From Magnetovibrio blakemorei (lineage in GTDB: Bacteria > Pseudomonadota > Alphaproteobacteria > Rhodospirillales > Magnetovibrionaceae), in NCBI RefSeq assembly GCF_001746755.1, contig NZ_MCGG01000002.1, positions 1-64,000 of the forward strand: DNA of 64,000 nt, written 5' to 3'. The translations under genes and the position numbers were made by a program. The notes beneath the pieces are model-generated. The model saw only the letters and a list, made by a program, of their open reading frames with translations, was not told the origin of the DNA and searched no databases. How positions within the stretch are numbered: position 1 is the stretch's first letter; each line of letters begins with the position of its first letter. This document shows positions 2,651 to 32,876 of the stretch, in pieces.

Positions 2651-3049
2651 GTGTCTTTAATCCAATGGACCGAAACAATGAAGGTGGGCATCCCATCAGT
2701 TGATTTTGAACACAAAGCTTTGATCGATGAGATCAATGCATTGGGGGATTTGCTTGAAACGAACACTGCGGTGGATAAAATCACAGCGCGACTTGGCGCC
2801 ATTCACGCCCTGATCGAAGGACACTTTGCGCTGGAAGAAAAGATCATGCTCGACATGGGCTACAACGGCTACCATGCGCATAAAGAAGATCACAATCGAC
2901 TGTTAGAACAAATCCGCGACATCATGGACGATACCGTGGTTGCTGACCAAGTGGATATCGCCGCCACGCTTGGGGCGCGGCTCGACGCTTGGTTCTCCGT
3001 TCACCTGCGCACCTTTGACCGCAGTTTTCACACACATATCAAGTCATAA
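2651..3049 (+). CDS. Bacteriohemerythrin
   Basis: A 132-residue single-domain protein beginning at GTG. The full diiron ligand set is visible: His21, His58, Glu62, His77, His81, His118 and Asp123 in the usual four-helix spacing. Such proteins bind O2 reversibly, and some protect denitrifiers from NO or ferry oxygen. It has its own FNR-type promoter, so induction at low oxygen or by NO is expected. It converges on the membrane-protein gene at the end of the sNOR operon, with only a weak hairpin between them. Confidence 0.93.
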   Translation: MSLIQWTETMKVGIPSVDFEHKALIDEINALGDLLETNTAVDKITARLGAIHALIEGHFALEEKIMLDMGYNGYHAHKEDHNRLLEQIRDIMDDTVVADQVDIAATLGARLDAWFSVHLRTFDRSFHTHIKS

Positions 3050-3068: not shown

Positions 3069-3800
3069 TCACTTGAAATAAAACTTGTGTTCGTTTTCGT
3101 TGAAACCAACGATCAGGTTTTGCGTCGGCTTGACGTTGACGATTTGACTCAAAACATGGGTAAATGGTTTGCTGGGGTCGCCGTCATTCATACGCACCGT
3201 GATCTGGTGTTCACCAGCTGAAATAAAGAATTTCTCATAGAAGCTGGACGATCCGTCACGCCTAAACCCTGCCGGAACGGCGGTGCCTCTAAAGAGGACT
3301 TGACCATCCATATCCAGTTCCAGCTTGATCTCCGCACGTTCGCGTGAACACTTCATTTGAGAGCGCATGTTTGGTGCCAGTTCCGCCAGTTCCGACTTCG
3401 AGCGTTGCACACACGCCTCGACACGCTGTCCGGGGTGGCTCAAATTCAATTTAATCTGGGCTTCCCCTGCGCCTAAATAAGTGTAGCTTGGGTTGGTTGC
3501 AAACACACTTACGACCGTCATAAACAGCCCATATGTAACACCTTGTGCAAGCCAATATTTTGAAGGCCGGGTCGCCGCATGGTCTTCGCGCTGGAGCGTG
3601 CCCGCTTTGGATTCGCGGCGTTTGTTGATGCGCTCTTGATGTTCCGACTGCAAACGCTTGCGTTCAATTTTGGCGGTGTCTTTGTAAAACAGATTTTTTA
3701 CGCCGATGTGCCACACGAATGAAAAATAAATCGGCGCAAAAACGGCAAACGGAACGGCATAAAACCAAACGGCATTGTCACCAGTGAAAAAATCAAACAT
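3069..3800 (-). CDS. Membrane protein of the sNOR operon, unknown function
   Basis: A 243-residue protein starting at ATG 3800, preceded by GGAG at 7-nt spacing and overlapping the upstream gene by 8 nt. It shows a first hydrophobic segment (about residues 12-33), a basic cytoplasmic stretch rich in Arg/Lys, a second hydrophobic segment (about 85-100), and a 140-residue soluble domain with beta-strand character and two cysteines. I do not recognise the family. Tight coupling to the cytochrome b/ferredoxin gene suggests a structural or assembly partner. It may correspond to the unnamed orf that accompanies norSY-senC in ammonia oxidisers, which I cannot test here. Confidence 0.6.
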   Translation of the reverse strand: MFDFFTGDNAVWFYAVPFAVFAPIYFSFVWHIGVKNLFYKDTAKIERKRLQSEHQERINKRRESKAGTLQREDHAATRPSKYWLAQGVTYGLFMTVVSVFATNPSYTYLGAGEAQIKLNLSHPGQRVEACVQRSKSELAELAPNMRSQMKCSRERAEIKLELDMDGQVLFRGTAVPAGFRRDGSSSFYEKFFISAGEHQITVRMNDGDPSKPFTHVLSQIVNVKPTQNLIVGFNENEHKFYFK

Positions 3801-5337
3801 CGCCGTTCTCCGTCTCGCTGACATGATCACTTAACACCGCGAGTTCATCCTTAAACGTTTTTACGGTGTTGTTGAGCAATTGCTCATCCAATGGCGAAGC
3901 CCACAAGGTGCGAATGCGTTCGCGCGGCACGCGTTTCCTCAGATAAGGATCGCGGCGCCCTTCCAGGCGATCTTGCATCCATTGCACGCCATACCGGAAG
4001 CGACATCCGCATTCAGGACAACCCGCCACCAAAACACCTTTGGCACCCTGGCTGATCATATAATCAATGAACGACGGCGGCATATGGGCCACACACGGAA
4101 GCTTCACAGCAGCCGTACCCGCAATGTTATCGACTTTTTGTCCATGATCGCATCCAACGATGACAATCCCGTCGGTGGCATTTTGCATGGCTTGATCGAC
4201 CATTTTGCGCATGCCTTTGAGCGGCAAGTGGACCAAATCAATACCCGTAATCAATTCATCTTCCGCACGGAAGGGCGTAGACGTTGGGCACGCCCCCACA
4301 CATATGCCACACCGTGTGCACAAGGCGGCATCGACAACCGCTTCTTGTTCGTAGGGCAAACCGTCGCTGCGCGGGACCATTTCAATGGCGCCATAAGGGC
4401 AATCTTCATAACAGCGTTTACAGCCATTACATTTATCCAGCGTTACGACGGCAGGCTCATGTTGACGCATCGGCGGAAGCCACGGCATCGCCATCACAAA
4501 CAATGATCCCCCGATGGCCACAGCCCACATCACGCCCGGTCCCCAAGCGTCAAACAAGGGGTAAAACGCCATGTAGTACCAATCCAATTCCAGTTCCGTC
4601 GGAATGACATCAAGATTGGCCTTGAGATGACTGACCGCCGGATTCACCAGCGACAACACCGTCAACGCCACCAACGTGCCAATGGCCAATCCTCGGGGCG
4701 GATTGATTTTGGGTTGGCTGACGCGGATCACATGGATCCACATCATGAATAACAAAAACAACGGTCCGAAGATGTGGACAAAAACCAGCAGTGTGAAGAA
4801 ACGATCATTCAAAGACCCTTCGGCCAAGAAATTGGTCGCCACCGGTTCCCCAAATATACCCAGCAAGTCGAGCCATTCCATTGACCCGATGGCCACGTAC
4901 TGGGCCAACTGATCCCACACCAGCCAGTAGCCCGATAGGCCCGATACATACAGCAGCCAAATCACCAACACACCCGTAAACCACGCATACCAACGCACAC
5001 CGCGGTACCGATCAAACGACCATTCGCGAATCAAGTGCAGCGACATGGTCAAGACCATGCCGTCCGAAGAGTAGCGATGCAGGCTGCGCATGATACCTGC
5101 GAACCACCACTGCTCATTGGTCATATACTCAACGGATTCGTAGGCCCCATTTACAGACGTTTCAAAAAACACGTACACGATGATGCCGGTGATCGCAGCG
5201 ACAAAGTACAAGTAAAATGCCACCGTCCCCAGTTGACGCATGGGGTTCCATTCCGGACCAAAGGCTCGGTCGTACTCTTTGTCTGCGCGCAGAAAAAAGT
5301 TTTGAATAAAGATGCGAATTGAGGTCAAGACGTTCAC
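3793..5337 (-). CDS. Cytochrome b - 2[4Fe-4S] ferredoxin - MvhD-like fusion protein
   Basis: A 514-residue protein starting at GTG. Residues 1-250 form a cytochrome b N-domain with the diheme ligand pattern His87/His101 and His188/His202, 14 residues apart in each helix. More membrane segments follow to about 285. Residues 303-313 and 340-350 are two CxxCxxCxxxC [4Fe-4S] motifs. Residues 390-480 resemble the MvhD/FlpD iron-sulfur domain of heterodisulfide reductase-linked hydrogenases, with Cys396, Cys415, Cys440, Cys443 and Cys445. The architecture joins a quinone-facing heme module to a cytoplasmic Fe-S relay. Between senC and a membrane protein in the sNOR operon it probably moves electrons between a soluble donor or acceptor and the quinone pool. 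Partner and direction are unknown. Confidence 0.82.
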   Translation of the reverse strand: MNVLTSIRIFIQNFFLRADKEYDRAFGPEWNPMRQLGTVAFYLYFVAAITGIIVYVFFETSVNGAYESVEYMTNEQWWFAGIMRSLHRYSSDGMVLTMSLHLIREWSFDRYRGVRWYAWFTGVLVIWLLYVSGLSGYWLVWDQLAQYVAIGSMEWLDLLGIFGEPVATNFLAEGSLNDRFFTLLVFVHIFGPLFLLFMMWIHVIRVSQPKINPPRGLAIGTLVALTVLSLVNPAVSHLKANLDVIPTELELDWYYMAFYPLFDAWGPGVMWAVAIGGSLFVMAMPWLPPMRQHEPAVVTLDKCNGCKRCYEDCPYGAIEMVPRSDGLPYEQEAVVDAALCTRCGICVGACPTSTPFRAEDELITGIDLVHLPLKGMRKMVDQAMQNATDGIVIVGCDHGQKVDNIAGTAAVKLPCVAHMPPSFIDYMISQGAKGVLVAGCPECGCRFRYGVQWMQDRLEGRRDPYLRKRVPRERIRTLWASPLDEQLLNNTVKTFKDELAVLSDHVSETENGDV

Positions 5338-5381: not shown

Positions 5382-6290
5382 TTAAAGGCTTGGGCCTGGA
5401 GATGGTTTTTGTTCCCGCAAACGCAATTGATTGCGTTTGTGGTTTTGCCATAGCCATTTCAACAAGAACGTCATCATGCCTAAGATGACCGTTGCCCCGA
5501 CCAATATGCGGAAAAAAATGGAATAGCGAAAACGGTATTGGTCCGCGGTCGGGTCGTAGATGGTGCAAAACAACCGTACCTTGTTGATCAGATCGCTAAG
5601 GCTGGAAAATGGCGACGCCGTGCCAAAAACCAAACTTTTTAACGGCTCGACAAAATGTGGAGCCTCAAACTGCTCGCCGTAAATCTGGCGAAACACAACC
5701 CCGTTTTTGTCCAAAATCGTGGTCTGCGTTAAATGGTCAAATCCTTTGGCGGATTCGAAAAATTGAAATCCTAAGTCTTCGCTTAACGCTGTTACGGCCA
5801 ATAAATCTCCACTGAGAAATTTCCAGTGGTCATTAATCTTTACACCGTACTTGCGCGCAAAACTTTTCATTTGCACAGGGTTGTCCGCCCCAATGTCAAA
5901 GCCTATGGTTACGATCGAATAGCTATCGTCGCCCAGTGCGTCGCGGGCCATTTCATCAACGTTTTGCAACGTCGCCGTAATCACCGGACAAACATCCGCG
6001 CAACTGGAATAGATCAACGAAATCACCAGTGGCTTACCGCGAAAATCTGAAAGAGAAATGCGATTGCCTTGGGTGTCGCGAAAACTGTAATCACCGATGG
6101 CCCGACCAATGGCCGCCTGAGACAGCGCCAATGCTTTTTCTTCATCCAAGGCACCGGTGTACGAATTGGAAATCGTGCCGGGCGCTTGCTGGCCTGCGTG
6201 AGCGTCAGATGACACCGCCACGACCGCTGCACAGAGCGTCGCGGCGAGCATTATTGTCATCATTCGCTTTTTCATGATTTTTTTGTTCAT
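5382..6290 (-). CDS. senC: SCO1/SenC copper chaperone
   Basis: A 302-residue protein with an N-terminal signal or anchor, a thioredoxin-like SCO domain bearing CxxxC at residues 97-101 (CADVC) and the copper-binding His186, and a C-terminal transmembrane helix at about 262-285, which is not typical of short SCO proteins. SCO proteins deliver copper to the CuA centre of subunit II, matching norS upstream. I chose ATG 6290; 6305 is also open. The gene is separated from norY by hairpins and lies 44 nt before the cytochrome b fusion gene. Confidence 0.88.
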   Translation of the reverse strand: MNKKIMKKRMMTIMLAATLCAAVVAVSSDAHAGQQAPGTISNSYTGALDEEKALALSQAAIGRAIGDYSFRDTQGNRISLSDFRGKPLVISLIYSSCADVCPVITATLQNVDEMARDALGDDSYSIVTIGFDIGADNPVQMKSFARKYGVKINDHWKFLSGDLLAVTALSEDLGFQFFESAKGFDHLTQTTILDKNGVVFRQIYGEQFEAPHFVEPLKSLVFGTASPFSSLSDLINKVRLFCTIYDPTADQYRFRYSIFFRILVGATVILGMMTFLLKWLWQNHKRNQLRLREQKPSPGPSL

Positions 6291-6317
6291 TCGGCTCACC
6301 CACAAAGCCTTGAGTGT

Positions 6318-6417
6318 GGCTTGCCCACAAGCCAGCCTGCAAGATTAAGAAAGGGCGGATACTATTCTGTGGGCATCGTAGTATCCGCCCCCCCGGAGCA
6401 CCCTTCTAAAAGGGTGC
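6318..6417 (-). promoter_or_regulatory. Three hairpins between norY and senC
   Basis: On the transcribed strand the norY stop is followed by an 8-bp hairpin (6398-6405 with 6410-6417), then a perfect 12-bp stem (6353-6364 with 6379-6390) trailed by TTTCTT, then a 6-bp hairpin (6318-6323 with 6328-6333) just before senC. The middle one looks like a terminator or mRNA-stabilising stem, which would make structural subunits more abundant than SenC and the downstream proteins. Confidence 0.7.
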
Positions 6418-6423
6418 GTGCGG

Positions 6424-8109
6424 TTAGCTCATACCCCAAACGCTCGCCAAGTATTTCCAGTTGACGAAGTAGTAAAGGACAAAAGCTGTTAGGAACACCA
6501 GAGCCAACACGAAGGTTCCAGGAACCTCCAAGGTGCTGGCACTGCCGTATTCAGTTGCGGCACCACCGATCGGTGCGGCCGGAGCTTCTTCGGCTGCAGG
6601 CGCAGGCACTTTAGCCTTACCAAACAAAATCGTGCTGACCATGTTGAGGATAAAGATACCCCCACCAATGCCGCCGATTACACCCGAAATCCCTGCCAAG
6701 CCCATCATCATATAGGCGGCGGCGGGGAACTCATGCACCATCATGGCGTCGGCGAACGAGATATCCCAGTGACGACGAGGAACACCAAGCGTACCCGCAC
6801 CCATCATGAAGATTGATGCCAGACCCATACCGAGACCGAACAGGTACGGTTGCCATTTGGCAAGACCCGGGAACACCAGTTCTTTCTGCCACAACACCGG
6901 AACCAACCAGTATGCCATCGCCATGAAGGCCAAGGTCGTACCGACCACGACCGTGCCATGGAAGTGACCCGGAACATACAAGGTGTTGTGAATGATGATG
7001 TTGAGCTGTTCTGTGCCCATCATAACGCCCGTGATACCGCCCAAGAAGCCGAACAACACGACCGACAGAGCAAATCCAGCAAATACCGGATTACCCCAAG
7101 GCGCTTTGCGGAGCCACTCGAACAGACCGCGGTTGTAGCCTTTTTTGCGCAACGCGGCTTCGACCGCACCCGGAACCGTCAGGCCATGAAGCATGGAACC
7201 CAAAACAGCCAAGTACAGAGCGTAAGACGTGTTGAAGATTTTCCATTCGGAACTGATGCCCGGATCGACCAAGATGTGGTGAGCGGATGCCAGTTGCAAG
7301 AACAGAATGTAGAACAAAAAGGCGGTGCGGCTGACTTTTTCGGACAGCGGTTTGGCACCGAACAAGATGGCCGCAATAGCGTACCAGCAGGCAATCTGCG
7401 CTGCCACGTTGATCTGCTGAGACGAGTGTCCCAAGCCCCACCAGATGACACGATACATCAACGTATCGATGTTGCCGATAAAACCCAACGACCAGAAGAA
7501 TGTTGGGATCAAAATCACTGCGCCCGCCAAGATGGTGAACACGGCAATAATCGCCGCCGTCATCGCACCAAACGTGACCAGCGGGATTGAACCCTCATAG
7601 GTCTTATCGCGTTTGGCGATATACAAGGTCGAGAAAAAGACCACGCAGCCCATCAACGCACCCACGGCAAACAAAATCACGCCGAGGTAAAAATGCGGTG
7701 CTGCCATCATCGGAACGTAAGACGTGAACATCACGCTGCTTTCGCCCTGCAACACTGCAACGTTGGTGATCAAAGCGCCGACCAACATAAGCGTATACTG
7801 AACCCATCCAAGCCAAGGCGCGGCCAGTCTGGTTTTCAACAATATTGACGACGTGAAATACAGCAAGGCCATCTCGAAAAAGATAATCCAAACCAACAAC
7901 ACGTCTAAACCGTGCGCCGTCAGCGCCAGGTAAAATAAATCAGCGTCCAATAAGTGAACCGCAGGCCAACGCGTCAGCGCGACCAAGATGCCGAACAAGC
8001 CGCCGACGAGCAAGAAGACAACGGCGGTAACCGCGTTCCACTTGATCAATTTGTCAGCCGCAAGATCGATTGCGAACCCGGTGTCCGGGCAAGTTCTAAA
8101 TTGTGCCAT
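6424..8109 (-). CDS. norY: Heme-copper subunit I, predicted sNOR-type NO reductase
   Basis: A 561-residue, about 14-helix heme-copper catalytic subunit. I took ATG 8109 (GAGG upstream); a GTG at 8124 overlaps norS as GTGA. Low-spin heme ligands are His66 and His384, the high-spin ligand is His382, and CuB ligands are His228, His277 and His278. In oxygen reductases of this type helix VI reads GHPxVY, with the Tyr cross-linked to a CuB His. Here it reads GHSSQQ, so Gln232 replaces that Tyr. Loss of the Tyr with three CuB histidines kept, next to CuA subunit II and senC, matches the norSY-senC (sNOR) group of NO reductases. Its proposed role is reduction of NO to N2O with electrons from cytochrome c or cupredoxin. 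Confidence 0.8.
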   Translation of the reverse strand: MAQFRTCPDTGFAIDLAADKLIKWNAVTAVVFLLVGGLFGILVALTRWPAVHLLDADLFYLALTAHGLDVLLVWIIFFEMALLYFTSSILLKTRLAAPWLGWVQYTLMLVGALITNVAVLQGESSVMFTSYVPMMAAPHFYLGVILFAVGALMGCVVFFSTLYIAKRDKTYEGSIPLVTFGAMTAAIIAVFTILAGAVILIPTFFWSLGFIGNIDTLMYRVIWWGLGHSSQQINVAAQIACWYAIAAILFGAKPLSEKVSRTAFLFYILFLQLASAHHILVDPGISSEWKIFNTSYALYLAVLGSMLHGLTVPGAVEAALRKKGYNRGLFEWLRKAPWGNPVFAGFALSVVLFGFLGGITGVMMGTEQLNIIIHNTLYVPGHFHGTVVVGTTLAFMAMAYWLVPVLWQKELVFPGLAKWQPYLFGLGMGLASIFMMGAGTLGVPRRHWDISFADAMMVHEFPAAAYMMMGLAGISGVIGGIGGGIFILNMVSTILFGKAKVPAPAAEEAPAAPIGGAATEYGSASTLEVPGTFVLALVFLTAFVLYYFVNWKYLASVWGMS

Positions 8110-8120
8110 GACCCGTTTCC

Positions 8121-8669
8121 TCACTTATCGACCACATGAATTTTGCCGACCATCGTATGATGGCCAATACCGCAAAATTCGTTACAAACAACACTGAACT
8201 CACCAGAGCTCGTGGGCGTTACCGTCAACACCATGTCGTATCCAGGGTGGATCTCTAAATTGATGTTTTCCGGCTGTAAGGAAAAGCCATGCATCCAGTC
8301 CATGGATGACAAGTGCAAGCGATAGGATTGTCCCTTTTCCAATTCCAGGACCGGCCACCACTCCCACAAACGACCAAGCATATAAACGTCGCTGCCTGCA
8401 GGAGGACGAACCACAGGCACGCCTGTGTCACCTTCTTCGCCAACTTTATATTTCGCAGCCATCTCTTCAGTACGTTTTGCAAACACTTCAGGACGAATGC
8501 GATACGCTTCGTTGGAAAGGTTCTGGCTACCGTTAATGTGCCAATACGGCATCATAAAGAACATCACCAGCGCCCAAATCAGCGCAATAAAAATCCATAA
8601 AACTTCCGATTTTTCAACCGGTTCGTTCCACCAAACCCGTTTTGTTGGGGGAAAAATAGCCATGCTCAT
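8121..8669 (-). CDS. norS: CuA-containing subunit II of the sNOR-type reductase
   Basis: A 182-residue protein with one transmembrane helix (about residues 22-41) and a periplasmic CuA cupredoxin domain. All CuA ligands are visible: His127, Cys162, Glu164 (backbone), Cys166, His170 and Met173. An AAGGGGGGC ribosome site precedes ATG 8669. CuA accepts electrons from a soluble cytochrome c or cupredoxin, both encoded in the neighbouring nir segment. It overlaps or nearly touches norY, indicating translational coupling. It is shorter than canonical CoxB, as in ba3-type enzymes. Confidence 0.87.
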   Translation of the reverse strand: MSMAIFPPTKRVWWNEPVEKSEVLWIFIALIWALVMFFMMPYWHINGSQNLSNEAYRIRPEVFAKRTEEMAAKYKVGEEGDTGVPVVRPPAGSDVYMLGRLWEWWPVLELEKGQSYRLHLSSMDWMHGFSLQPENINLEIHPGYDMVLTVTPTSSGEFSVVCNEFCGIGHHTMVGKIHVVDK

Positions 8670-8676
8670 GCCCCCC

Positions 8677-8844
8677 TTACGGTGCTACGGGGATGGAGAC
8701 GATCTCCATCACACCCCAAATGATATAAATAACCGTCGGCATTGCGACACCGATAAACAGAAGAATAAATGGAGAATCCAATAACTTCTGCATAAAGGGT
8801 ATCGACCCCCCGTCGCCCGCATGTGTGCTGTCATGCTCTGACAT
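8677..8844 (-). CDS. Single-helix subunit, cytochrome oxidase 2A-like
   Basis: A 55-residue protein with one transmembrane helix (about residues 26-48) after a short polar N-terminus. The start at ATG 8844 has GGAGG at 7 nt; an upstream in-frame codon at 8859 is less likely. It is the first gene of the operon, 7 nt before norS. Small subunit IIa of ba3-type oxidases has the same size and place, and supplies the helix that subunit II lacks. Assignment rests on context and topology, not on sequence identity. Confidence 0.7.
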   Translation of the reverse strand: MSEHDSTHAGDGGSIPFMQKLLDSPFILLFIGVAMPTVIYIIWGVMEIVSIPVAP

Positions 8845-8962: not shown

Positions 8963-8976
8963 TTGACCAAGATCAA
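8963..8976. promoter_or_regulatory. FNR/Dnr box in the divergent sNOR-HHE region
   Basis: TTGACCAAGATCAA matches TTGAT-N4-ATCAA with one change. It lies 119 nt before the first sNOR operon ATG and 128 nt before the HHE gene. For the leftward promoter a TATTAA (8937-8932) sits near the -10 position expected for activation from -41.5; the rightward spacing fits less well. The Crp/Fnr gene next door is a likely source of the regulator. Confidence 0.72.
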
Positions 8977-9103
8977 ATTGTCAAAACCTGTGTACGATTG
9001 ACGGTCGTCAATGCATATACCTATCCGCGCGCTCAATATTTCTATCAAGCGACTTGTGGGCAGGCTTGAGCTTTAAAATCCTTCATTAATTAGGGGACAG
9101 TGC

Positions 9104-9685
9104 ATGCCACCCAACGCCGATCAGACGACACTGGATATGTTCGGTATCTTGGTTGAACACATTCCCGATAATTTGTTGCTGGAGCCGCTCGAATATATTT
9201 TTGCCGACCACTGTCGGCAGAAAGATTTATGTCGTGCGTTGAAGGTTTTAGCCAAGCAAAGTCAGGCAAGCGACGTGGCCACGGAAACGGCCACGACCAT
9301 TTTGCAGTGCTTGCGCCACGATCTGGCCCTGCACATTGCGGATGAAGAGCAAGACCTGTTCCCCCGCTTGCGTGAACGTGCCATACCGAGTGATAAAATC
9401 GAAGACACCTTGCGGTTGCTGGGTTCGGAGCATATGCGCGATCGCGAACTGGTTGAAATCGTTATGGTGGGCCTCCAGAAAATCGCTGAAGTCAAACCTG
9501 TCAGCGACATTCAAGCGTTCCGCACAGCGGCAGAGATGCTGTCGGAAATCCATCTATCCCACTTAAATTGGGAAAACACCGTCATTTTGGAATTGGCACG
9601 TCTGCGCCTAAATGCCGATGATCAACGCGAAATGGCCAAAAGCATGGCAGCGCGGCGTGGTATCAATTTACCCCAACTTGACTAA
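9104..9685 (+). CDS. Hemerythrin-like HHE domain protein
   Basis: A 193-residue soluble protein with the HHE cation-binding pattern: His in FADHCRQ, then HIADEE..LFPRL, SEHMRDRE and HLSHLNWE, a probable non-heme diiron site. Members of this group are linked to NO/oxygen sensing or iron-sulfur repair in denitrifiers. It is divergent from the sNOR operon with a shared FNR-type box, and its end overlaps the end of the convergent Crp/Fnr gene by 4 nt. A GGGGAC ribosome site precedes the ATG. An NO-protection role is inferred. Confidence 0.82.
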   Translation: MPPNADQTTLDMFGILVEHIPDNLLLEPLEYIFADHCRQKDLCRALKVLAKQSQASDVATETATTILQCLRHDLALHIADEEQDLFPRLRERAIPSDKIEDTLRLLGSEHMRDRELVEIVMVGLQKIAEVKPVSDIQAFRTAAEMLSEIHLSHLNWENTVILELARLRLNADDQREMAKSMAARRGINLPQLD

Positions 9686-10419
9686 CAGCCCATCGATTGG
9701 GTCGTAATCATCGCGCGTAACGCGTCGAGATCTTTGATCACCACGTCGTGGCCTGCGCTTTGAACGCCAACGGTTTTGAGTTTTGCCAGGGCACGCGAAA
9801 ATGTTTCCGGCTGCATGCCTAGGCGTGCCGCAATCAAAGACTTGTCCAGCGGCAACGTGATGGTCGCCGTTCCGTTGGTGGAATTGGATAAACTGAGAAG
9901 AAAGTCCGCCAAGCGTTCCGTGGAGGACATGCTGCACATTTGATGCAGTTTGGTGACGTTCTGACGCATTTGCCGCGACATGGACCCCAGCATATTGAAG
10001 GTAAAGTTCATGTTTTCATGGAGTTGGCGCACCAAGCCTTCTGCATGAACCACCAACAGCCGGACATCGGTGATGGCAACCGCGCTGACGGGGAAGACGC
10101 TGCTGTCAAATATGGCGGCTTCGGCAAAACTTTCCCCAGGCGACGAAACGGAAATCACCACTTCCTGACCGCTTTCCGTCAATCTGAACAGTTTGATCCA
10201 ACCATCCATAACAACAAAAAAACGATCTGCAGGGTCACCTTCCATAAACAATGTGGTGTGATCGGGATAGCGGCGAATGGAACTGGTCGCCAACAACTTG
10301 CGCAAGTCGCTGGGCACCATCCCAGAAAATAAATACACCTGACCTAAGCGGCGAATGTCATCACGGGTTATCCCCGTGCGCAGCTCAAAATCATCAACTT
10401 CTTTGGACAACTGCCCCAT
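9682..10419 (-). CDS. Crp/Fnr-family regulator, Dnr/NnrR-like
   Basis: A 245-residue regulator with an N-terminal cyclic-nucleotide-binding-type beta barrel (about residues 30-140), a dimer helix, and a C-terminal Crp-type winged helix with recognition region RLGMQPETFSRALAKLK. There is no FNR-like N-terminal cysteine cluster, so it is of the Dnr/NnrR class rather than an [4Fe-4S] oxygen sensor. I took ATG 10419, preceded by AAGGGG; an open extension to 10485 lacks similarity. Its place beside nitrogen-oxide genes with two FNR-family boxes makes NO-responsive activation of them the likely role. Confidence 0.83.
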   Translation of the reverse strand: MGQLSKEVDDFELRTGITRDDIRRLGQVYLFSGMVPSDLRKLLATSSIRRYPDHTTLFMEGDPADRFFVVMDGWIKLFRLTESGQEVVISVSSPGESFAEAAIFDSSVFPVSAVAITDVRLLVVHAEGLVRQLHENMNFTFNMLGSMSRQMRQNVTKLHQMCSMSSTERLADFLLSLSNSTNGTATITLPLDKSLIAARLGMQPETFSRALAKLKTVGVQSAGHDVVIKDLDALRAMITTQSMGC

Positions 10420-10569
10420 GCCCGTTCCCCTTTGCCCACAGCCGTTACGGCAGCACAATTGGCCGCCGAAAATACTTCCCTGCAAAAAGTTACACTATTC
10501 AAATCCAAAAGACGAGTGTTTCAAATTGGCATAAAGCCATAAAATAAATATGGTTTTATCAAGAGGCCA

Positions 10570-29121: not shown

Positions 29122-30369
29122 GTGAGCGCAGTCGAAATTGCCCAAGGGGTGCACTGGATTGGGGCCTTAGATCCGGCCTTACGGCGCTTCGATTTGATTT
29201 TGTCCACGGCCAACGGCACCACCTAAAACAGCTATGTCGTGCGCGGTGAGACGGGCGTGGCGATTATCGACACGGTAAAGCAGGAATTCACCGAGACCTT
29301 TTTTGCCAACTTGGCCGAAGTCGCCAGCACTGACGAAATCACCGCCATCGTGCTCAATCATTTGGAGCCCGACCACACCGGGGCGCTGCCGGAACTGTTG
29401 CGCCGTGCCCCCCACGCCAAGGTCTACATTTCGTGCCGGGCACCGGGCATGTTGAAGGCTTTGTTGAAGTCGGACATGAAAAATTTCGACTATACTCCGG
29501 TTGACACCAACGACGAGTTGGACTTGGGCGGGCGCAAGCTGCGCTTTCTCAACACCCCCTATTTGCATTGGCCCGACACCCAATGCACCTGGTTGGACGA
29601 CGCCCAAGTGTTGTTTCCGGGCGATCTGTTTGGTTGTCATTTTTGTGATGATCGCCTGTTCAACGATCTGGTCGGCGACTTTCGCTTTTCGTTTGAATAT
29701 TACTTCGCCCACATCATGCGCCCGTTCAAAGAATACGTGCTGGAAGCCCTGGAATTGATTGAGCCCCTGGCGCCCAGTTTGGTGGCCCCCGCCCATGGTC
29801 CCATCTTGCGCGACCAGCCCACCAACTACATCCGCCGCTACCGCCAAATGTCCGAACCCCGGCTGCACAACGAGGTGAAGAGCGATGAAAAAAGTCTGCT
29901 GATTTTTTACATCAGCGCCTACGGCAGCACCGCGCGCATGGCCGAAGAAATCCGCAACGGGGCCAGTTCCGTGGCGGGCATTCGCGTATCTCTTTATGAT
30001 TTGGAAGGCGGCGAAGTCGCCCCCTTTGTCAATTTGGTGGAAGAAGCCGATGGTTTGATGTTCGGCACCCCCACCATCAACGGTGATGCGGCGAAGCCCG
30101 TGTGGGATCTGTTGGCATCGCTGTGTTCCATCAAAACCCAAGGCAAAATGGGCGCCGCGTTTGGATCATACGGTTGGACCGGAGAAGCCGTAGAGATGGT
30201 CGAAGCGCGCCTGCGGGGGCTGAAAATTCGTGTCCCCCGATCCGGGCTTAAAATCAAGCTGATCCCCACCGAGGAAGAACTTGCCGAATGCCGCGCGTTC
30301 GGCCAATCGGTTGCAGAACACCTGATGGGCACCAACGTGAACACAGTGATCGACTTCAGCGACTTGTAA
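29122..30369 (+). pseudogene. Flavodiiron protein gene with in-frame TAA
   Basis: From GTG 29122 (AGAGGA 7 nt upstream) the frame encodes 415 residues if the TAA at 29224-29226 (codon 35) is read through; otherwise 34 residues, and then an open frame from 29227. The TAA stands in the family motif GTTYNSY, where Tyr is expected, one base from TAC or TAT. Downstream all parts are intact: diiron motif HLEPDH, GDLFGCHFCDD, AHGPILRD, and a flavodoxin domain (YISAYGSTARMAEEI). The protein would reduce NO or O2 in the cytoplasm. This could be a recent nonsense mutation, a sequencing error, or a gene expressed by re-initiation near GTG 29239. Confidence 0.85.
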
Positions 30370-30506: not shown

Positions 30507-32876
30507 ATGTCATCCAAGTTAAATGATAAACTAAGATTTAAGAACTTATCTTTAATACTTCTAAATAAGAAATTTTGGTTTACTCATTTTCTCATTGTTA
30601 CAATTATAAGCGTTGCCGGATTAATTTATCTTGGCCAGGCGACGTATTCCGGTGCACCGCCACTTGTTCATTTCAAGTCATCCACAGGCGAAACCGTCAT
30701 TTCCCGGCAGTTGATCAACGCAGGCGAACGGGTGTTTCACCTTCGGGGTTTGATGAGTTACGGTTCATTTTGGGGAGATGGGGCGGAACGCGGTCCGGAC
30801 TTCACCGCCGATGCCCTGCACCGCATGACCGTTTCCATGAGATCGTTTTATGCCGGTGAACTGAAGGCTCAAGGAACGACACAAGACCTCGGTCAATACG
30901 ACCAAGACGCCATCGCCGCCAGGGTCCGGCGCGAAGTTCACACCAACACCTGGGATGAAAGCTCCGACACAATCCTCTTGAACGAAGCGCAGATATTTGC
31001 CCTCGAAGAATTGAACCGTCACTACACCCGCATGTTCACAGATCCACACTACCCCGAGCTGTTCCAAATCGGATACATCACCGAGCCAAAAGACATCCAG
31101 GCCTTAACCGCGTTTTTCTATTGGGGGGCCTGGGTAGCCGCAGCCAACCGCCCCGGGGAGGATTACAGCTACACCCACAATTGGCCTTACGATCCAGACG
31201 CGGGCAACACCCCGACAACCGCAACCTTTATCTGGAGCGCCATGTCCATTTTGGGTCTGTTTCTGGGCATTGGCATCGTCTTGTACGTGTACGGTCAGAT
31301 GAAATCGATGCACTATGATCCGTTCAACGGCAACACCGGAACGTCATTGACGACACACGATCTTGAAAACAATTACATTCGTCCAACCCAAAGGGGGACG
31401 TATAAATTTTTTGCCCTGGCGATTGTGTTGTTTGCGCTTCAAGTTCTCGCCGGCATCATCGGGGCGACGGACTTCGTGCGACCGTTTGGCCTGTTTCTCG
31501 GCGACATCATCCCGTTCACCGTTGCGCGCAGCTACCATACTTTATTTCAGATCTTTTGGTTCTTCATGTGCTGGGTTGGCTACACCATCTTTTTCCTGCC
31601 TCGCCTCTCCGAAGCGCCGCGCGGTCAGACCTTCCTGATCAACCTGTTGTTCACGTTGTGCATCATTGTCGGCGCGGGTGCATTGGTGGGTATTTATCTA
31701 GGTCAAACCGGCATATTGACCGGCGACATGGCCTATTGGCTGGGCAGTCAAGGTTGGGAGTTCATGGAATTTGGACGTCTCTTCCAGATCATCTTGCTGG
31801 TCGCCTTCACGCTATGGATTTTCATCATCTATCGCGGTGTGAAGCCGTGGCTGACGCGCAAAAATATGTGGTCCATTCCCGCTTGGCTTCTCTATGGCAG
31901 CGGCGTGATGGTGTTCTTTTTGTTCTTTGGCCTATTGGTTACCCCGGAAACGAACTTTGCCGTCGCCGATTACTGGCGGTGGATGGTCGTGCATATGTGG
32001 GTTGAGGTCACGTTCGAAGTTTTCACGACCGTGATTGTCGCGTACATCCTTGTGCAGATGAATTTGATCACGCGCGCGATGGCGGAACGGGTGGTGTTTC
32101 TGGCTGTGATGCTTTTCTTCATCACCGCCACCGTCGGCATTGCGCACAATTTTTACTGGATTGCCAAGCCCACCGGCGTCATCGCCTTTGGCAGCGTGTT
32201 TTCAACCCTTCAGGTGTTGCCCCTGCTGTTGCTGACCTTGGACGCCTGGCGCATGCGCCAGGAAAAAACTCGCGCCAACACGTTGCGCGATCAAGGCAAA
32301 CAGACCATTGTGATGGATGAAGTGTGGCTGTTTATTCTCGCCGTTAATTTTTGGAATGTTTTTGGCGCGGGCGTGTTTGGCTCCGTCATCAACCTTCCCA
32401 TTGTGAATTACTATGAGCACGCGACCTACCTCACAGGCAACCATGCCCACGCCGCCATGTTTGGCGTCAAAGGCAACATTGCCCTGGCGGGGTTGCTGTT
32501 TTGTTGCCAGCACATATTTGAAAAATCCAGCTGGAACGCAAAACTGATCCGTCGTTCGTTTTGGTCGTTAAACATCGGCGTCGCCATGATGATGTTTCTG
32601 GACCTTTTTCCGGTGGGCGTATACCAGTTGGTTGATGTCCTTCAAAACGGTCTCTGGCATGCGCGGTCTTACGAGATTGTTCAGGGCGACGTATTTAAGA
32701 CCCTGACCTACTTCCGCTCTCTCGGCGGCGCCGTGTTTGTCATCGGCGGCGTCATTCCGCTGGTCTGGTTCATTTTGTCCCGCGGCCGCCGACTGGTGCG
32801 CGAAGTGCAAATCGAGCCCAATTCCCACACAGACTATGAAAAAGATTGGGCCGCACAAGAAGACGCGCCACACTGA
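30507..32876 (+). CDS. norZ: Quinol-dependent nitric oxide reductase
   Basis: A 789-residue fused NorB-type enzyme: an N-terminal helix and a periplasmic NorC-like domain without a heme c motif (about residues 40-240), then about 13 helices. The catalytic helix shows His496 and Glu500 (HMWVE) with Glu504; the helix X histidines lie in TGNHAHAAMFG. It reduces NO to N2O with electrons from quinol, giving a second, CuA-independent NO reductase in this window. The first 40 codons are markedly AT-rich compared with the rest. It has its own promoter region and a terminator, so it is monocistronic. Confidence 0.96.
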   Translation: MSSKLNDKLRFKNLSLILLNKKFWFTHFLIVTIISVAGLIYLGQATYSGAPPLVHFKSSTGETVISRQLINAGERVFHLRGLMSYGSFWGDGAERGPDFTADALHRMTVSMRSFYAGELKAQGTTQDLGQYDQDAIAARVRREVHTNTWDESSDTILLNEAQIFALEELNRHYTRMFTDPHYPELFQIGYITEPKDIQALTAFFYWGAWVAAANRPGEDYSYTHNWPYDPDAGNTPTTATFIWSAMSILGLFLGIGIVLYVYGQMKSMHYDPFNGNTGTSLTTHDLENNYIRPTQRGTYKFFALAIVLFALQVLAGIIGATDFVRPFGLFLGDIIPFTVARSYHTLFQIFWFFMCWVGYTIFFLPRLSEAPRGQTFLINLLFTLCIIVGAGALVGIYLGQTGILTGDMAYWLGSQGWEFMEFGRLFQIILLVAFTLWIFIIYRGVKPWLTRKNMWSIPAWLLYGSGVMVFFLFFGLLVTPETNFAVADYWRWMVVHMWVEVTFEVFTTVIVAYILVQMNLITRAMAERVVFLAVMLFFITATVGIAHNFYWIAKPTGVIAFGSVFSTLQVLPLLLLTLDAWRMRQEKTRANTLRDQGKQTIVMDEVWLFILAVNFWNVFGAGVFGSVINLPIVNYYEHATYLTGNHAHAAMFGVKGNIALAGLLFCCQHIFEKSSWNAKLIRRSFWSLNIGVAMMMFLDLFPVGVYQLVDVLQNGLWHARSYEIVQGDVFKTLTYFRSLGGAVFVIGGVIPLVWFILSRGRRLVREVQIEPNSHTDYEKDWAAQEDAPH

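Follow-up and report, generated by a model that had tools for sequence, protein, structure and literature searches.

A probable eNOR-type nitric oxide reductase with glutamine at the active-site tyrosine position in Magnetovibrio blakemorei, and its recurrent cytochrome b-FlpD gene neighbour

Based on the combined evidence of active-site residues, phylogeny and genomic context, the norS-norY pair of Magnetovibrio blakemorei probably encodes an eNOR-type NO reductase, understood as a B-type (ba3-like) enzyme of two or three subunits that has an invariant glutamine in place of the active-site tyrosine and would convert 2 NO into N2O. As judged from sequence, norY fits the little-studied, already known eNOR branch and not sNOR, the family to which the first-pass annotation had assigned it. 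The more general part of that annotation, a CuA-fed enzyme derived from the B-type oxidases, lacking the tyrosine and probably reducing NO, is supported by the comparison.

The cluster is encoded on the minus strand of the window, that is, the whole 64-kb stretch of DNA analysed. Its first gene, an ORF upstream of norS (8677-8844), specifies a 55-aa single-helix protein. It is followed by norS (8121-8669), a subunit II with a complete CuA site whose Pfam COX2 match of 20.8 bits lies slightly below the cut-off of 22, and by norY, the heme-copper subunit I, which we place at 6424-8109 from an ATG near which the homologues begin; a GTG start (6424-8124) is also possible. In the ATG numbering used for norY throughout, the motif GHSSQQ comprises residues 227-232 and stands where the B-type oxygen reductases have the cross-linked tyrosine motif GHPxVY, so that the tyrosine place is taken by Gln232 (Gln237 from the GTG). 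All six heme/CuB histidines (H66, H228, H277, H278, H382, H384) are present, their individual roles being assigned as in the family. The reading of these features in the first-pass annotation, including the full CuA site of subunit II, is confirmed. Among 132 related loci (122 distinct proteins), Q231, Q232, H228, H277, H278 and H382 are kept without exception; H66 is kept in 131, the remaining sequence not being aligned there, and H384 likewise in 131. Given that the glutamine and the CuB histidines are retained in 132 of 132 loci, the glutamine of norY reflects neither sequencing error nor chance. The CuA ligands of norS (H127, C162, E164, C166, H170, M173) each occur in at least 98% of 84 aligned rows, and among the matches listed a norS homologue is present at all 83 named loci. 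A similar small ORF precedes norS in 62 of 82 loci, as counted with a loose regular expression and no control, and the 55-aa protein is a candidate for a small third subunit of the IIa-like kind. The structure model of norY has a mean pLDDT of 78.0; in both sequence and fold, the solved structures nearest to norY are the B-type oxidases 7deg and ba3. With the ba3-type (B-family) oxidases norY shares the fold, the histidine ligands and CuA, and it is about 26% identical in sequence to ba3 structures, but in the alignment it has Gln where ba3 has Tyr237 (ba3 numbering). The single exception at H384 is a Gln-type relative on a Thermus thermophilus plasmid (L031, 6980-8665), with Lys (GHFK) in place of the histidine that binds the low-spin heme; one of the ten Thermus plasmid matches was read.

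The residue at the tyrosine place distinguishes the families in print: Tyr in oxygen reductases, Glu in cNOR and qNOR, Asn in sNOR, Gln in eNOR, Asp in gNOR and Asn in CuANor (PMC8756737, Table A4). That source reports eNOR from Proteobacteria and Chloroflexi, with a B-type relationship and a cupredoxin-type subunit II, and another describes eNOR as biochemically characterised (PMC11388526). The norS-norY pair resembles eNOR in the Gln, the B-type relationship, the cupredoxin-type subunit II and the Proteobacteria/Chloroflexi range; this likeness is one to the published description and hallmark. The characterised member is reportedly the eNOR of Rhodothermus marinus, from a PNAS paper of 2024. 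The placement in a heme-copper phylogeny for which the first-pass annotation had called was realised in a subunit I tree of 51 rows, with motif columns removed, that includes sNOR and the ba3/B-type oxidases and is without a characterised eNOR. In it, norY falls within one clade of 20 Gln-type rows (93/90), which is grouped with the B-type oxidases at 100/98, together with a very long, degenerate row (L006); sNOR forms one clade (100/100) outside. Long branches are present, and support for the Gln-type clade is 93/90 only. A constrained tree that joins norY's clade with sNOR was rejected at a p-AU of 0.028, a modest result open to long-branch effects. Two further rows, L002 (labelled A-type by guess) and L130 (guessed as 'other'), group with C-type oxidases. 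Membership in eNOR is therefore proposed by its hallmark, from the diagnostic Gln, the B-type placement and the published taxonomic range.

It is highly improbable that norY is instead an sNOR of the kind encoded by norSY-senC in ammonia oxidisers. The two systems have in common the order norS-norY-senC and a CuA subunit II, but a CuA subunit II and an adjacent senC are also common to the Gln-type loci and so do not discriminate. What does discriminate is the asparagine, present in all eight sNOR-clade rows, which were chosen by similarity to L147 and not by residue. L147 itself is the NorY of G126, a genome with an ammonia-monooxygenase match from which we infer an ammonia oxidiser, and there norS, norY and senC lie in a row; such a match was found in eight genomes, the five strongest of which were searched, and G126 was the one of five to have the gene set. 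Also among the eight rows is Ruegeria pomeroyi, presumably the organism listed under its former name Silicibacter in the published residue table, in which the gene for subunit II is followed directly by those for subunit I and SCO. The ammonia-oxidiser-type NorY, used as query, had no match in the M. blakemorei genome at E 1e-12, and a Thermomicrobium roseum plasmid and the genome G724 each carry one Gln-type and one sNOR copy. As sNOR has Asn both in print and in 8/8 rows and forms a clade apart, whereas norY has Gln, the sNOR label is considered to be wrong. Similarly, we regard it as very unlikely that norY represents another proposed NO reductase family, such as nNOR: among the families whose residues are listed above, the published Gln hallmark is that of eNOR, whose reported range includes Proteobacteria and Chloroflexi (PMC8756737). 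With cNOR and qNOR, the norS-norY enzyme shares the presumed reaction; it differs in that norY exhibits neither a NorB-type sequence nor the FeB-site Glu pattern and is not in the cNOR/qNOR clade. Five haloarchaeal plasmid matches (L033, L034, L148-L150) considered as eNOR references were all Tyr-type and of no help.

NO reduction is likely the best reading of norY function, as suggested by the Gln for Tyr in conjunction with the co-occurrence of nirS, the nir genes in the flanks, the prevailing lack of cNorB and the FNR-type boxes. Gln-type norY occurs in 22 of 60 genomes comprising the organism's own and close relatives. Of 398 phylum genomes, 34 matched norY at 1e-20 (5 matched an sNOR query at 1e-12); subtraction of the own genome, three weak matches of 541-542 aa (G473, G646, G693) and a 92-aa fragment (G587) gives 29 Gln-type genomes. 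A NirS-like match was obtained in 25 of these (24 at E<=5e-115, G455 at 3e-41) and in 17/17 of those of good quality, both figures being counts within the Gln-type genomes. Strong cNorB was restricted to 4 of the 29 (4/17 good-quality), one of these genes containing a TAG in its reading frame, and one further match was weak; the 24 genomes without a cNorB match at E 1e-15 may hold other kinds of NO reductase that the NorB query would miss, and G724 also has an sNOR. In the literature, nirS without nor is described as rare among putative denitrifiers, eNOR not having been part of such counts to the authors' knowledge (PMC8756737). At the level of gene neighbourhood, nirS/heme-d1 genes were among the matches listed for the flanks of 33/102 loci (24/83 named, 9/19 phylum-sample; nirS itself in 29), a count that omits the single match of L031 to a query guessed as nirJ; position alone is expected to give nir genes in less than 1% of flanks, by rough estimate and not by a computed control. 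For norB, norD, norQ and nosZ, some of them query genes named by eye, the corresponding number was 0/102 among the matches listed. The named loci include 80 that are the best 80 of at least 573 matches and thus lean to close relatives; the phylum sample, which is less biased, consists of 19 of the 29 Gln-type genomes.

Regulatory sequence adds to this. The window contains only three perfect copies of TTGAY-N4-RTCAA, the FNR/NNR-type consensus, and all three are at the norY locus: two upstream of the cluster (8963-8976, 8998-9011) and one upstream of a hemerythrin gene (2563-2576). Simulated sequence gave a mean of 0.29 boxes per 64 kb, with three or more in 2/200 simulations. Boxes of this type would also fit a response to low oxygen, hence a role of norY as a high-affinity B-type O2 reductase without the tyrosine, used under such conditions. 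The ba3 oxidases as closest relatives in both fold and sequence are consistent with that role, which has been argued for sNOR in N. europaea (PMC6967387), and so is cyoE (heme o synthase), located near 47/83 named loci (among the matches listed) and 15/19 phylum-sample loci, as it often is near oxidases; the genes scanned in the window's norY cluster do not include a cyoE. The invariant loss of the tyrosine and the link to nirS, found in genomes that for the most part gave no cNOR match, nevertheless make O2 reduction an unlikely function.

For NO reduction by the eNOR-type enzyme, and with the metal content that we infer for it, a c-type cytochrome or a cupredoxin of the periplasm would deliver electrons to CuA of subunit II, from which they would pass to the low-spin heme and onward to the high-spin heme/CuB site, a path suggested by the fold and the ligands. 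There, two molecules of NO, made by NirS, would be converted into N2O. The protons would probably come from the cytoplasm via a modified K-path. Among the candidate positions in norY, identified by eye, Y243 and S305 are kept in 132/132 loci and S256 in 129/132, with the other K-path positions differing. Unlike ba3, norY has an invariant His (H308) at the place of Thr312 and does not keep Tyr244 (alignment by eye), both being K-path residues of ba3. In the database records examined, eNOR-type genes are annotated as oxidases, and nirS organisms can therefore seem to be without NO reductase. The 25/29 Gln-type genomes with NirS-like match, taken together with the 24/29 without cNorB, imply that such Proteobacteria could rely mainly on the Gln-type enzyme to turn NO into N2O, and the family could represent a source of N2O missed by norB surveys.

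Directly downstream of norY and on the same strand is senC (5382-6305, minus), encoding by Pfam a copper-assembly protein of the SCO1/SenC family, at the C-terminus of which a membrane helix was discerned by eye. This much of the first-pass statement that senC belongs to the norY operon stands; the qualification concerns the 118-nt gap, which harbours tandem hairpins of terminator- or attenuator-like appearance (6306-6423, minus) and perhaps reduces read-through. The stretch 6300-6425 folds at a z-score of -5.86, with 0/200 shuffles as stable, and a hairpin after the norY stop was found in 8/8 relatives folded, here without shuffle control. A separate hairpin scan did not list the norY-senC hairpin, because its loop exceeds the length which that scan allows. 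Hairpins at this position would fit lower expression of senC as an assembly gene. Among the matches listed, a SCO homologue is present in 63 of 65 full-flank loci, defined as having 1.5 kb upstream and 5 kb downstream, and it is present in 19/19 phylum-sample loci.

An unusual neighbour is a gene (3793-5337, minus) whose product, according to Pfam, joins a cytochrome b of bc1/b6 type with two [4Fe-4S] motifs and an FlpD (MvhD) domain in one chain. It recurs in 63/65 full-flank loci (among the matches listed), the two loci lacking both it and SCO being those of Thermus and Thermomicrobium. Where phylum-sample loci extend at least 5 kb downstream, it is present in 11/16, once upstream on the other strand, and absent from the stretch in 5/16. 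Two histidine pairs (H87/H101, H188/H202), the Asp-Trp of D252 and W253, eight ferredoxin cysteines and four cysteines of the FlpD part are all kept in 30/30 aligned rows. Fold matches to the structure model (mean pLDDT 82.6) comprise bc1 cytochrome b and the FlpD subunit of heterodisulfide reductase (Hdr) complexes, with E from 7e-4, and by a helix count made by eye the FeS domains would face the cytoplasm. A record combining cytochrome b6, FlpD and a C1 cytochrome domain is tabulated as RME88945.1 (PMC8756737, Table A3). In the literature searched, description of such a partner together with eNOR was not found, and the neighbour thus marks a difference of the present loci from eNOR as known. 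Its recurrence points to a role as partner of the NO reductase. We tentatively suggest, as a possibility of rather low probability, that in Proteobacteria the protein is a dedicated eNOR partner, connecting NO reduction in the periplasm with both the quinone pool and a low-potential carrier of the cytoplasm. Either it would pass electrons outward to CuA or, in the fashion of bc1, it would divide the electrons of quinol, one share going via CuA to NO and the other to the FeS/FlpD domains in the cytoplasm; NO reduction would thereby conserve energy, something that cNOR is not known to do. The recurrent partner provides a testable handle on energy conservation by an eNOR-type NO reductase.

Other neighbours recur to different degrees, always counted in full-flank loci among the matches listed; in the count that covered the phylum sample, hits labelled 'L006p' were left out as mostly weak matches to norY itself. 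A protein of unknown family with two conserved cysteines (C140, C161; 3069-3830, minus), for which Pfam and NCBIfam gave no match at 1e-3, has homologues in 62/65, and the Pfam-assigned bacteriohemerythrin (2651-3049, plus) in 51/65 on either strand. Beside the cluster lie a second hemerythrin-domain protein (9104-9685, plus) and a Crp/Fnr-type regulator (9682-10485, minus), the latter with homologues in 28/65 at varied distance and strand. The window opens with the C-terminal part of a NirS-type cytochrome d1 protein, truncated by the contig start (8-277, plus; PF02239 match), followed by Pfam-assigned genes for a NapC/NirT-type cytochrome (413-1069, plus), a c-type cytochrome (1066-1800, plus) and a cupredoxin (1806-2231, plus). 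These three are candidate electron carriers and were found near norY in 6, 3 and 7 of the 65 loci, respectively.

The proposal that M. blakemorei uses this enzyme rather than cNOR does not hold for the genome, in which there is also a canonical norB, its neighbours resembling norQ and norD by eye. The window itself holds, besides norY, a qNOR-like, NO-dismutase-like (NOD) gene. The genome further gave a nosZ-type match and, for NirK, none over the cut-off. Near norB there is a second nirS (C84:9960-10872), split over two reading frames by a frameshift or an assembly error, with Pfam support on one piece. The NOD-like gene (30507-32876, plus) encodes a 789-aa protein which, in an alignment with 3AYF read by eye, has HN at 547-548 against HH at 559-560, hence Asn for one metal-ligand His, and Gln569 for the catalytic-site Glu581; the quinol-site residues H328 and D746 are not kept. 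The protein thereby bears published marks of NO dismutase and is putatively assigned as such from its residues. A flavodiiron-like gene (29239-30369) lies just upstream. Elsewhere in the genome, the COX1-family protein L006 (C25:87312-88514) lacks the two paired histidines of CuB, having GHVLQF and no HH at the corresponding place; it joins the Gln-type clade only via its very long branch and adjoins an unusual A-type subunit I, L001, with the motif SHPAVY.
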